NCBI GenBank assembly: GCA_005880795.1
Contig: VBGP01000013.1
Location: 1-54,756, forward strand
Origin: Chloroflexota bacterium
GTDB lineage: Bacteria; Chloroflexota; Dormibacteria; Dormibacterales; Dormibacteraceae
Direction of reading: 5' to 3'
DNA length: 54,756 nucleotides
The position numbers were made by a program, and so were the translations under genes. This document shows, in pieces, positions 45,553 to 48,913 of this stretch. Position 1 is the first letter of the stretch, and each line of letters starts with the position of its first letter. The notes below the pieces were generated by a model that did not search any database, had not been told where the DNA came from, and worked only from the letters and a program-made list of their open reading frames with translations.

Positions 45553-46572
45553 CTAACCGCGAAGACCGGCCGTGTGCAGTATGGCAAACGCGATCCACGC
45601 CATCGCCCCGGAGGCAGGAATCGTCACGATCCACGCGAGCGCGATATTCGCGCCGAGTCCCCAACGCACGGCGGACATCTTTCGACTTGCACCGACGCCG
45701 ATCACTGACCCGGTGACGACATGCGTGGTGCTCACCGGAAGGCCAATCACAGTGGCCGCTTGAATAACGGTCGCGCCCATCACCTGCGCAGACAATGCAG
45801 TTACGGGTTCGAGCTTGAGGATGCTCCAGCCCAACGTTCGGATGATGCGCCAACCCCCTGCATAGGTACCAAAACTGATCGCCACCGCTGAGAGGACCAC
45901 CACCCAAAGCGGGACCTGGAACTTCGGCAGGTCTCCCGACGCGACCAGGGCGAGCGTGATCGCCGCCATTGTCTTCTGCGCGTCATTGGCCCCGTGCGAG
46001 TACGAGAGGTACGCGGAGGTCACGACCTGTAGGCCGCGGAGAGTGCGGTTGACAGGCGCAGGCCTCCAGCCCGCGCGCTGAATGATGAAGATCAACAAGA
46101 TCGCGAAAATCCCCGCGGCAACAAAACCGAGCGGCGGCGAGATGACGAGGCTGGCGATCTGCTTGACGAGCGCCGACCACTTGACGCCGCCCAGCCCACC
46201 GGCGGCGGCTATACCGGCGCCACACAAGCCGCCGATCAGAGCGTGAGTCGAGCTGCTAGGCAGTCCTCGATACCAGGTAATCAGGTTCCAGGAGATGGCT
46301 CCAAGCAGGGCCGCCATCACAACAACAAGTCCGGGCTTGATCGCCAGAGTGCTGGCAATGGTGTTCGACACCTTGGCCTGGAAGAACGCAACCGTGATTA
46401 CAGCCCCCACCAGGTTGAAGACAGCAGCCAGACCTACCGCGGCGCGCGGGGAAAGGGCCCGCGTGGAGATCGAGGTGGCGATGGCATTGGCGGTGTCGTG
46501 GAAGCCGTTGGTGAAATCGAAGGCAACAGCGATAGCTATCGTGACCCACAGCAGGATCGCGGTCTCACGCAT
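45553..46572 (-). CDS. pit: PiT-family inorganic phosphate (arsenate) transporter
   Basis: The 339-aa protein has ten or more membrane helices and both PiT signatures: FTNGFHDTANAIATS near the N-terminus and SHGANDAQK in the second half, plus SSSTHALIGGLCGAG. It carries phosphate and, in known homologues, arsenate. The ATG at 46572 overlaps the DUF47 stop by 8 nt. DUF47 proteins are typical partners of Pit, so the two genes form an operon. Confidence 0.95.
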   Translation of the reverse strand: MRETAILLWVTIAIAVAFDFTNGFHDTANAIATSISTRALSPRAAVGLAAVFNLVGAVITVAFFQAKVSNTIASTLAIKPGLVVVMAALLGAISWNLITWYRGLPSSSTHALIGGLCGAGIAAAGGLGGVKWSALVKQIASLVISPPLGFVAAGIFAILLIFIIQRAGWRPAPVNRTLRGLQVVTSAYLSYSHGANDAQKTMAAITLALVASGDLPKFQVPLWVVVLSAVAISFGTYAGGWRIIRTLGWSILKLEPVTALSAQVMGATVIQAATVIGLPVSTTHVVTGSVIGVGASRKMSAVRWGLGANIALAWIVTIPASGAMAWIAFAILHTAGLRG

Positions 46573-47173
46573 TCTTGATTGCGATCGTCTCCATAACATT
46601 GGCGGTGTGCTCGCAGGCGTCCATCGTCGCCTCGAGCAGGTCGTAGATGTCCTTCCACTTCACGAGCTCGGATGCATCGGTGACGCGCGAGAAGAGCTCG
46701 CCGATCGCGTCGCGCATCAACCGGTCGCCCTCGTTCTCGAGGCGATGGATCTCGACGCGATGCGGTTTCAGCTCCGCGAACCCCTCAAAGCGGTCAAGCG
46801 CTGCCGCGATCTCGATACCGGCCTTTGCAAGGTATTCACCCATCTGCTTGGCCGGGTCACTGACTGAGTTGATGCGGTACAGATCGATCTTGTCGCCGGT
46901 TTCTTCGGCGAGGTCGACGACGTCGTCCAGGCTTGACGCCAGGAGCAGGATGTCGGACTCATCGATTGGGGTGATGAATGCGCTGTTCACGAGGTTGTGG
47001 ATCTGATGCGTCGCCTCGTCGCACTCGTGCTCGAGGTCTCGCAACCGAGCATGCCGGCTCTTGCCTTCGAGCAGAGACTTGCCGAGCTCGGTCAGCGTCT
47101 CGCTGACGAGATTGCCCTGGGTTCGAAAAAGGTCGTAAAACCGCCGTCCGGGGGTGAGTGGTGTGAGTTTCAT
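46565..47173 (-). CDS. DUF47/PhoU-like protein, Pit partner
   Basis: The 202-aa protein is all-helical with the DUF47 pattern RDLEHECDEATHQIHNLV and LASSLDDVVDLAEETGDKI, and an EIHRLENEGDRLMRDAI repeat. These are PhoU-like metal-binding helices. It precedes pit in a two-gene operon and is divergent from phoU. A GGAGGA Shine-Dalgarno lies 4 nt before the ATG. A second copy is at 48918-49547. Confidence 0.9.
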   Translation of the reverse strand: MKLTPLTPGRRFYDLFRTQGNLVSETLTELGKSLLEGKSRHARLRDLEHECDEATHQIHNLVNSAFITPIDESDILLLASSLDDVVDLAEETGDKIDLYRINSVSDPAKQMGEYLAKAGIEIAAALDRFEGFAELKPHRVEIHRLENEGDRLMRDAIGELFSRVTDASELVKWKDIYDLLEATMDACEHTANVMETIAIKNA

Positions 47174-47205
47174 CGCGTCCTCCGGGAAAAGGCTATTCGG
47201 GGTTG

Positions 47206-47228
47206 GGTTAAGGCGTCGTTAACGTCAC
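47206..47228. promoter_or_regulatory. Candidate Pho-box-like direct repeat in the DUF47-phoU divergent spacer
   Basis: Two 11-base units start GTTAA(G/C): GTTAAGGCGTC (47207-47217) and GTTAACGTCAC (47218-47228), directly adjacent. Pho-box operators for PhoB-type winged helices are built of 11-base direct repeats. Together they cover the -35 region of a TAACAT -10 candidate (47232-47237) that lies 7 nt before the phoU GTG. The 8-mer GGTTAAGG also lies just upstream of the second DUF47 gene (49548-49555). Confidence 0.45.
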
Positions 47229-47244
47229 CTCTAACATTCTGGGA

Positions 47245-47871
47245 GTGACAGACAACGGCTTGATGCGGCTTGGCGACCTGGTGGCCCAGGCTCTCGAGGG
47301 AGCGCTGAAGGCGCTGGCGCGCAGTGACCTGATTCTGGCCGATCGAGTCGTCCGCGACGACCTCGAGGTCAATCGTCTCCGCTACCAGCTGGAGGAAGAA
47401 CTCGTGGGTGGACTTTCCGCCGCCGGCGGCGAGGAAATCCGCTCCCTTGTTGGAGCGCTTTATGTGCTGCCGGAACTCGAGCGGATGGGCGATCACGCAG
47501 AGGGGATAGCGAAGGTTGCCCTGATGCTGGGGCCACACCCGACGCTTCCGCTACCCGGGGCGGTCGTCGAAATGGGCAAGCGAACACTTTCCATAGTCAA
47601 TCGGACGCTGACTGCGCTGAACAAAGGCGACGCGAACCTGGCTCGGGCCTTGTGTCTTGAAGACGACGACATCGACGCTCTCTACGACCGCGCGTACCAG
47701 GAGTTGATTTCGACGATGGTCGCGGACCCGCGCCACATCGCCGAGGCAACCTACATGCTGTGGGTCACCCACAACCTGGAACGCATAGCTGATCGAGCCA
47801 CGAATGTTTGCGAGCGCGTCGTCTACCTCGTGACAGGACGCGTGGAGGAATTGAACGTCTCCAAGTACTGA
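47245..47871 (+). CDS. phoU: Phosphate signalling protein PhoU
   Basis: The 208-aa protein is built from two three-helix PhoU repeats (LVAQALEGALKALARSD, and LYVLPELERMGDHAEGIAKVAL; LWVTHNLERIADRATNVCERVVYL). PhoU usually moderates Pst and PhoR-PhoB signalling; here no pst genes are seen. GTG 47245 lies 7 nt after a TAACAT hexamer with no spaced Shine-Dalgarno. The regulator-reductase fusion follows in the same direction. Confidence 0.9.
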   Translation: MTDNGLMRLGDLVAQALEGALKALARSDLILADRVVRDDLEVNRLRYQLEEELVGGLSAAGGEEIRSLVGALYVLPELERMGDHAEGIAKVALMLGPHPTLPLPGAVVEMGKRTLSIVNRTLTALNKGDANLARALCLEDDDIDALYDRAYQELISTMVADPRHIAEATYMLWVTHNLERIADRATNVCERVVYLVTGRVEELNVSKY

Positions 47872-47926
47872 ACCGACACGCGTCCGGGTTGTCGTCATCG
47901 GCGCCGCATCCGGCACGACGGTTCAA

Positions 47927-48913
47927 TTGAAGACAAGTCTCGCCGCCGGCGGTATCGACGTGGTCGCCCACCGAAGCGTCGATGGGCTCCAGCGAGAGCC
48001 GTTCGCCGATGCGATCCTCCTCCAAGGTATGGACCTCCTGGACGGAACTGCGGCTGTCCGGCGAGCAACCGCGGCGCCGCTGCTGGTGATGGGCCCGGAC
48101 GAGCGAGTGGCAGCCACTTGCCTGGCCATGGGAGCGGATGCGTGGTTGCCGGCCGGGAGCACGTCGAACCTGATCGCGGCTCAGGTTCAAGCGCTTCTGA
48201 GAAAAGCTTCGCCGGCGCCATCGCGGACACGGCTTGGTGCCGGCCGCCTACGCTTGGACTCCAGCGCGCGACGTGCGGAAGTCGATGGTCGCGAGATCCA
48301 GTTGGCGCCGCGCGAGTTCGATTTGCTTCAGGTTCTCTTGATGAATCGCGGCGTCGTGTTGAGCCGAGATCGAATTCTCGCTGCAGCATGGGGCACCCGC
48401 TTCGTGGGCGAACCGAAGACAGTCGACGTGCACATCGCCTGGCTCCGGCCCAAGCTCGAAGGGAGCCAGTTGCGGATCACTACCTTGCGCGGGATCGGCT
48501 ACCGTCTCGATGTTCTGGAAGAGAGCAAGCCCCGAGTCCTGTTTGTGTGCGTCCAGAACGCCGGCCGGAGCCAGATGGCCGCGGCTTTCCTCAATCGATT
48601 GTCGGACGGTCGAGCACTCGGAGAATCGGCCGGCACTCGCCCAGCACCCAGCGTCCATCCCGAGGTGGTAGCGGTGATGCTGGAGGTTGGCATCGACCTA
48701 AGCGATGTCCGACCTCGCGCACTCACGCCTGAGCTCGGAGCCTCGGCCACAAGGGTCATCACCATGGGCTGCGCAGAAGAAGACTGCCCGGTTTTTGCCG
48801 TACCAGTCGAGGATTGGCTCCTCCCCGATCCGGCCGGACTCCCGATCTCGGCGGTCAGGGAAATCCGCGACGAGATCGAGCGACGAGTGCGCGGCCTGCT
48901 CTCCGGCGAATAG
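47927..48913 (+). CDS. Fusion: degenerate receiver, PhoB-type winged helix and arsenate reductase
   Basis: From TTG 47927 the 328-aa protein has a degenerate receiver domain (about 1-93), in which Gln replaces the phosphoacceptor Asp (AILLQGMDL, Q33) and the conserved Lys is missing (ADAWLPAG). An OmpR/PhoB winged helix follows (about 103-196; LAPREFDLLQVLLMN, VDVHIAWLRPK, LRGIGYRL). It ends in a low-molecular-weight phosphatase-type arsenate reductase (about 202-328) with catalytic CVQNAGRS (C208-R214), a redox pair in ITMGCAEEDCPVF and a DPAG motif. The reading frame is open to 47855, and the first receiver strand (RVRVVVIGAASG) lies before the TTG, so the true start is probably upstream and non-canonical. 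Confidence 0.88.
   Translation: MKTSLAAGGIDVVAHRSVDGLQREPFADAILLQGMDLLDGTAAVRRATAAPLLVMGPDERVAATCLAMGADAWLPAGSTSNLIAAQVQALLRKASPAPSRTRLGAGRLRLDSSARRAEVDGREIQLAPREFDLLQVLLMNRGVVLSRDRILAAAWGTRFVGEPKTVDVHIAWLRPKLEGSQLRITTLRGIGYRLDVLEESKPRVLFVCVQNAGRSQMAAAFLNRLSDGRALGESAGTRPAPSVHPEVVAVMLEVGIDLSDVRPRALTPELGASATRVITMGCAEEDCPVFAVPVEDWLLPDPAGLPISAVREIRDEIERRVRGLLSGE

Follow-up and report, generated by a model that had tools for sequence, protein, structure and literature searches.

The closest described counterparts of the protein reported here are the ArsR-ArsC fusions of Leptospirillum, Microbacterium and Sinorhizobium, which likewise combine a transcription regulator with an arsenate reductase in a single chain (PMC6205960). 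However, their DNA-binding half is an arsenite-responsive ArsR, whereas in the present protein it is an OmpR/PhoB winged helix preceded by a pseudo-receiver and encoded at a pit-phoU locus. ArsC is also joined to a functional partner in Acr3-ArsC of M. tuberculosis and AqpS-ArsC of Salinispora, but there the partner is an arsenite exporter or channel rather than a regulator (PMC6205960). The stand-alone C. glutamicum ArsC1' (3T38) has the CX5R motif and the cysteine pair of the fused ArsC, although it has no regulator domain and the spacing of its cysteine pair is one residue off.

With PhoB, RegX3 and PrrA the fusion shares the receiver fold, the winged helix, a site of direct repeats at an 11-bp period and a phosphate locus; unlike them, it lacks the phosphorylation residues, carries an additional ArsC and belongs to a clade apart from the PhoB of its own family. 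ChxR, HP1043, RitR and GlnR are also of the OmpR/PhoB type with a pseudo-receiver and act without phosphorylation, as is predicted here from the sequence; to our knowledge, none of them has an attached catalytic domain. Phosphorylation-free regulators are thus known, and a cysteine switch operates in RitR and HP1021 (PMC12632262). In S. meliloti, the orfA-pit operon pairs a DUF47-like gene with pit, as in our locus, is repressed on phosphate starvation and has a PHO box at its start (PMC3131613), but it is under canonical PhoB control and involves no ArsC fusion. We found no report of a PhoB-type regulator fused to ArsC in the openly accessible literature.

A conserved fusion of a PhoB-type regulator and an ArsC domain

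The window (the whole stretch of 54,756 nucleotides that was analysed, from contig VBGP01000013.1 of a Chloroflexota bacterium) contains the following genes and domains.

45553..46599, minus strand: pit (PHO4 family phosphate transporter)
46565..47173, minus strand: DUF47a (PhoU_div), divergent from phoU
47245..47871, plus strand: phoU, immediately 5' of the fusion, whose frame it overlaps
47844..47857, plus strand: GGAGG-N6-ACG, putative ribosome-binding site followed by an ACG that may serve as the fusion's non-canonical start
47855..48913, plus strand: fusion ORF of pseudo-receiver, PhoB-type winged helix and LMW ArsC, 352 codons, putative start
47879..48208, plus strand: pseudo-receiver, residues 9-118, with Gln57, no beta1 acidic pair, no beta5 Lys and an invariant Cys89
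48230..48517, plus strand: OmpR/PhoB winged helix, residues 126-221, with FVGEPKTVDVH-AWLR invariant
48530..48904, plus strand: LMW-type ArsC domain, residues 226-350
48548..48568, plus strand: CX5R oxyanion loop, C232-R238
48770..48787, plus strand: redox pair, C306...C311
48918..49547, minus strand: DUF47b (PhoU_div), convergent with the fusion

A first-pass annotation had read one ORF as a degenerate receiver, an OmpR/PhoB winged helix and a complete LMW-type ArsC, with Pit, PhoU and two DUF47 genes as neighbours, and our results bear out both the domain order and the neighbourhood. The frame runs without a stop across its whole length, and Pfam recognised Trans_reg_C at residues 145-218 (E 4e-22, above the gathering score), which is the sole DNA-binding domain, an ArsR-type HTH being absent, and LMWPc at residues 228-349 (E 1e-18). 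No Pfam receiver (Response_reg) match was found in the first 118 residues. The AlphaFold model comprises a complete five-strand (beta-alpha)5 receiver fold at 10-118, the winged helix and the ArsC fold, with a mean pLDDT of 82.5; the low pTM of 0.42 means that the model does not fix how the domains pack together. Foldseek matched the regulator half to PrrA/MtrA/PhoP and the enzyme half to pI258 ArsC (1jf8; TMt 0.90, rmsd 1.4); the best solved matches of the regulator half were RegX3 and PrrA. A canonical PhoB identity was ruled out by the score against the PhoB model TIGR02154 (90.6 bits, below the curated cut-off of 296.2), by the regulator tree and by the residues.

The complete fusion was found in ten species (G000, G254, G406, G408, G402, G261, G405, G415, G207 and G416), which fall into three genera of one Chloroflexota family and show 62-95% identity to the window protein. 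Named records in the contig collection assign the fusion to MAGs of uncultured soil Chloroflexi. The locus is constant in all ten, with pit-DUF47a on the minus strand, phoU-fusion on the plus strand and DUF47b on the minus strand. No fusion was found elsewhere in a 400-genome sample of the phylum, 110 genomes of the class, the contig collection or plasmids. Although the source is a draft MAG, an assembly or sequencing artefact joining two genes has a negligible probability, because the same winged helix-ArsC join recurs in all ten genomes with synonymous divergence between them. There is no frameshift at 48525-48545, the place which the first-pass annotation had singled out beforehand as the point to check. 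Frameshift, assembly error and chimera are thus excluded by ten congruent genomes, and the fusion ORF is real and conserved. The dN/dS of the ArsC part is 0.11-0.25, similar to that of the receiver and somewhat higher than that of the winged helix.

Start of the fusion frame and its overlap with phoU

The ORF had been placed from 47855, and the frame is indeed open from there, but this coordinate is the frame edge, an ACG following an in-frame TGA (47852), and the start is putative. From this TGA on, the frame contains no ATG, GTG or TTG before TTG 47927, which falls within the first helix of the receiver. Arg11 lies upstream of every GTG available in the relatives of the family, and 15 species all keep it, by way of six different codons; such invariance indicates that translation begins before Arg11. 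The GGAGG-N6-ACG arrangement is kept across the family, suggesting that the fusion is translated from a non-canonical ACG start. A +1 frameshift from PhoU into the regulator would also account for the missing start codon, but we reasoned that it is unlikely, given the apparently poor tRNA re-pairing in the 16-nt overlap. The PhoU C-terminus, ELNVSKY-stop (window 47848-47871), is present in 15/15 species, though identity elsewhere in PhoU is far lower, and this tail is longer than that of the canonical PhoU of the family.

Loss of the phosphorylation residues

In the window protein, Gln takes the phosphoacceptor place (residue 57, where beta3 ends), and the first-pass annotation was right about both this residue and the missing beta5 Lys. 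However, Gln57 is ruled out as a meaningful feature of the lineage, since the position varies among the ten fusions (Q in 3, H in 1 and D in 6). Across 14 aligned regulators it is Q, H, D or another residue, while the beta1 acidic pair and the beta5 Lys occur in 0/14. The domain is therefore a pseudo-receiver, with the receiver fold present in the AlphaFold model and the phosphotransfer residues missing from the alignment; its invariant residues include H39-R40, R69-R70 and C89. Because the unfused regulators of G095 and G183, which belong to another family, also lack the phosphorylation residues, these were lost before the fusion arose. This order of events, together with five species that run the box-regulator-PhoU locus without a fused ArsC, leaves the earlier suggestion that ArsC replaces phosphorylation unsupported in that form.

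No histidine kinase is adjacent to the fusion at the locus. PhoU, encoded directly upstream with an overlapping frame, would be a natural candidate partner of the pseudo-receiver. Cys89 (window 48119-48121) is invariant in fused and unfused regulators; it sits on helix 4 of the pseudo-receiver, which usually forms the dimer face, and by analogy with RitR and HP1021 it could be a thiol switch.

A conserved box between two predicted divergent promoters

Three short elements lie between DUF47a and phoU.

47190..47195, minus strand: TAGCCT, predicted -10 for the DUF47a-pit promoter, at 11 nt from the box in all 15 genomes
47207..47222, plus strand: box GTTAAGGCGTCGTTAA, predicted regulator site, GTTAA direct repeat with an 11-bp period
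47232..47237, plus strand: TAACAT, predicted -10 for the phoU promoter, 7 nt ahead of the phoU GTG

The 71-bp divergent region is variable apart from the 16-bp box GTTAAGGYGTCGTTAA. Allowing at most one mismatch, this box was detected, in a single copy each, in 15/15 genomes of the class that carry the regulator, versus 1/95 of the others (p 1.4e-17), and it was absent from the three pit-DUF47a loci without phoU-regulator. A GTTAA direct repeat with an 11-bp period fits the expectation for a tandem OmpR/PhoB dimer, and we infer that the regulator binds the box. A minus-strand TANNNT stands 11 nt to the left of the box in 15/15 genomes and a TANNAT 8-14 nt to its right in 15/15, for which the chance expectations, from the window's own shuffled flanks, are about 0.5% and about 1%, respectively. 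The right-hand TANNAT is followed by the phoU start codon after 7-8 nt in 15/15. This promoter-like spacing in 15 genomes places the box at the -35 of both predicted divergent promoters. Since its predicted -10 lies so close to the GTG, phoU is probably leaderless. The site at 47206-47228, which the first-pass annotation had named for a binding check, thus turned out to be conserved, and a unique conserved box at both -35 places strongly argues for local control by the regulator of its own operon and of DUF47a-pit.

Gain and loss of the ArsC domain

Regulators that lack ArsC are found at loci of this kind in five species: G199 and G342 belong to the fusion family, G095, G183 and G445 to a second family within the class. 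In the regulator tree, fused and unfused regulators formed one clade (97/97), separate from the family's own PhoB (100/100), and G199 and G342 nested among the fusions. The G342 protein has the tail DDRRPTVL, which at both the DNA and the protein level corresponds to the first ArsC strand of its relatives, so this species most likely lost the ArsC domain secondarily; G199 probably lost it as well. At least one species has thus undergone secondary loss, and with two fusions having lost redox cysteines, ArsC is not needed for regulation in general. Because the species tree built from four neighbouring genes in concatenation had weak inner support, our reading of gain and loss leans on the regulator and ArsC trees and on the G342 remnant. 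A single fusion event with later losses is the favoured scenario on these sequences, while two separate fusion events are possible.

In three species (G289, G400 and G087), a free ArsC lies exactly between DUF47b and DUF47a, without phoU-regulator, and it clusters with the fused ArsC in the ArsC tree (98/91). At these loci (L126, L161 and L127) the free arsC stands where the window has phoU-regulator-ArsC, and the box is gone. Two of the three species, G289 and G087, also possess a pst operon. In addition, L049:5850-6492, from a MAG labelled B_DOR_08, encodes an unfused, diverged regulator. A PhoU-like tail, EELNISNY, stands ahead of it, without a PhoU and among unrelated genes; the locus is a relic or a chimeric contig.

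Exchange of the Pst module for Pit

In other species of the family (L162), the same chromosomal site, bounded by rsmG/lysA and NUDIX-thiG genes, is occupied by a histidine kinase (phoR), pstB, phoU, canonical phoB, pstC, pstA and arsC. These pst-type relatives carry a separate arsC after pstA in the pho operon, and the pst-operon ArsC falls in a different clade of the ArsC tree from the fused ArsC. A pstC above the cut-off was found in 0/12 regulator genomes versus 24/30 others of the family (Fisher p 1.7e-6, the species not being independent). The fusion lineage has therefore exchanged the Pst/PhoR/PhoB module for Pit at this site. The affinity of PstS is 500-700-fold higher for phosphate than for arsenate (PMC7866108), and with Pst replaced by Pit, arsenate is expected to enter along with phosphate.

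The ArsC domain and the arsenic gene content

The window ArsC carries every catalytic residue: C232 and R238 of CX5R, the C306-x4-C311-P pair and the general acid D325. CX5R is invariant in 10/10 fusions. Both redox cysteines are lost in the G207 fusion and one in the G416 fusion, so that redox sensing, which had been proposed earlier, does not hold as a general role. The general acid is Asn in the fusions of G402 and G261 and likewise in the free ArsC of G117. Among solved ArsC structures, that of the thioredoxin-dependent C. glutamicum ArsC1' is nearest in sequence (E 1.5e-23). The NCBIfam arsenate reductase equivalog models matched below their cut-offs (59.1 vs 157.6 and 50.9 vs 174.3 bits).

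Of the 8 genomes whose fused ArsC keeps an intact redox-cysteine pair, 7 have no other LMWPc protein, versus 3/4 genomes with another one where the fused domain is broken or lost (p ~0.07, computed by hand); the G207 genome has no LMWPc protein besides its cysteine-less fusion. That the intact fused ArsC is usually the only LMWPc protein suggests that it serves as the cell's ArsC, and we consider arsenate reduction by this domain moderately supported by its residues. ArsB and ACR3 were absent from all fusion genomes, which are draft, incomplete MAGs, so that classical detoxification is incomplete; no ArsR or any other ars gene was seen at the fusion locus. A MIP channel is encoded in the window's own genome and in 9/10 fusion genomes. 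Arsenite exit through such a channel is known from S. meliloti AqpS (PMC6205960), but these channels may be ordinary aquaporins. In the same family, MIP channel and LMWPc genes are immediate neighbours at G079:C4:45323-47072 and G296:C32:5365-7106, resembling an AqpS-ArsC-like arsenic cluster.

Discussion

The explanation that we prefer, with a probability of roughly 0.55, is that of a local Pho regulator, independent of phosphorylation, which works beside PhoU and has gained a C-terminal arsenate reductase. The regulator would bind the conserved 16-bp box between DUF47a-pit and phoU and thereby set the expression of its own operon and of the low-affinity transporter Pit. With no kinase adjacent and the phosphorylation residues missing, what sets its activity is probably PhoU or some other ligand that the pseudo-receiver binds. 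With Pit in place of the arsenate-discriminating Pst, arsenate would enter with phosphate, and the fused ArsC, produced whenever the locus is on, would reduce it to arsenite by means of its retained catalytic residues; the arsenite may leave via the MIP channel found in the gene content.

The ArsC domain might instead act mainly as a sensor, with arsenate or phosphate bound at CX5R, or oxidation of the redox pair, altering DNA binding by the winged helix in a one-component switch on the Pit locus. At this phosphate locus ArsC is covalently tied to the DNA-binding protein, which, like the lack of an arsenite pump, would fit such a switch, and CX5R is kept even where the redox cysteines (G207 and G416) or the general acid (G402 and G261) are lost, which leaves direct arsenate sensing, as first proposed, possible. 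However, the box and the regulator persist in the five species without a fused ArsC, of which G342 at least represents secondary loss, the AlphaFold model shows no confident packing between the domains, and an intact fused ArsC tends to be the genome's only one. We thus regard this role as rather doubtful, and the same holds for its fuller form, a one-component sensor of arsenate/phosphate or thiol state acting at a single box that controls the divergent Pit/PhoU locus in a lineage without Pst and without a kinase at the locus. The LMWPc superfamily also takes in phosphatases, and the domain could be a protein phosphatase or an inert fold used for dimerisation or PhoU binding; the catalytic drift in genus g7 and the missing arsenite pump are consistent with this, but the NAGRSQMA motif and the GC..CP pair are of the ArsC type, the nearest solved relatives are nearly all arsenate reductases and the NCBIfam models for that enzyme do match, though under cut-off, which makes a function other than arsenate reduction improbable.

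A stronger competitor, though still somewhat short of an even chance, is that the fusion merely enforces co-expression of two independent halves, the link having no mechanism of its own; as a silent form of our preferred explanation, it overlaps with it. Relatives already have arsC as a gene of the pho operon, ArsC readily fuses to other proteins (PMC6205960), and the domain was lost in G342, and probably in G199, while the locus was kept. Purifying selection and the constant domain order over 62-95% identity in ten species might seem to speak for a functional link, but they show only that both halves are kept, which is compatible with mere co-expression.

Under the preferred explanation, a phosphorylation-independent regulator with a gained arsenate reductase, the fusion may link the handling of arsenate to a phosphate uptake of poor selectivity, and the proposal that a regulator-ArsC fusion is tied to phosphate uptake is supported by the locus and the site. 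The regulator-ArsC fusions that we found in the literature involve ArsR, whereas here a PhoB-type regulator of a phosphate-uptake locus bears the arsenate enzyme. The defined 16-bp site allows a phosphorylation-free Pho regulator to be tested, and the fused, unfused and secondarily lost forms within one family constitute a natural experiment on the separation of phosphate and arsenate.
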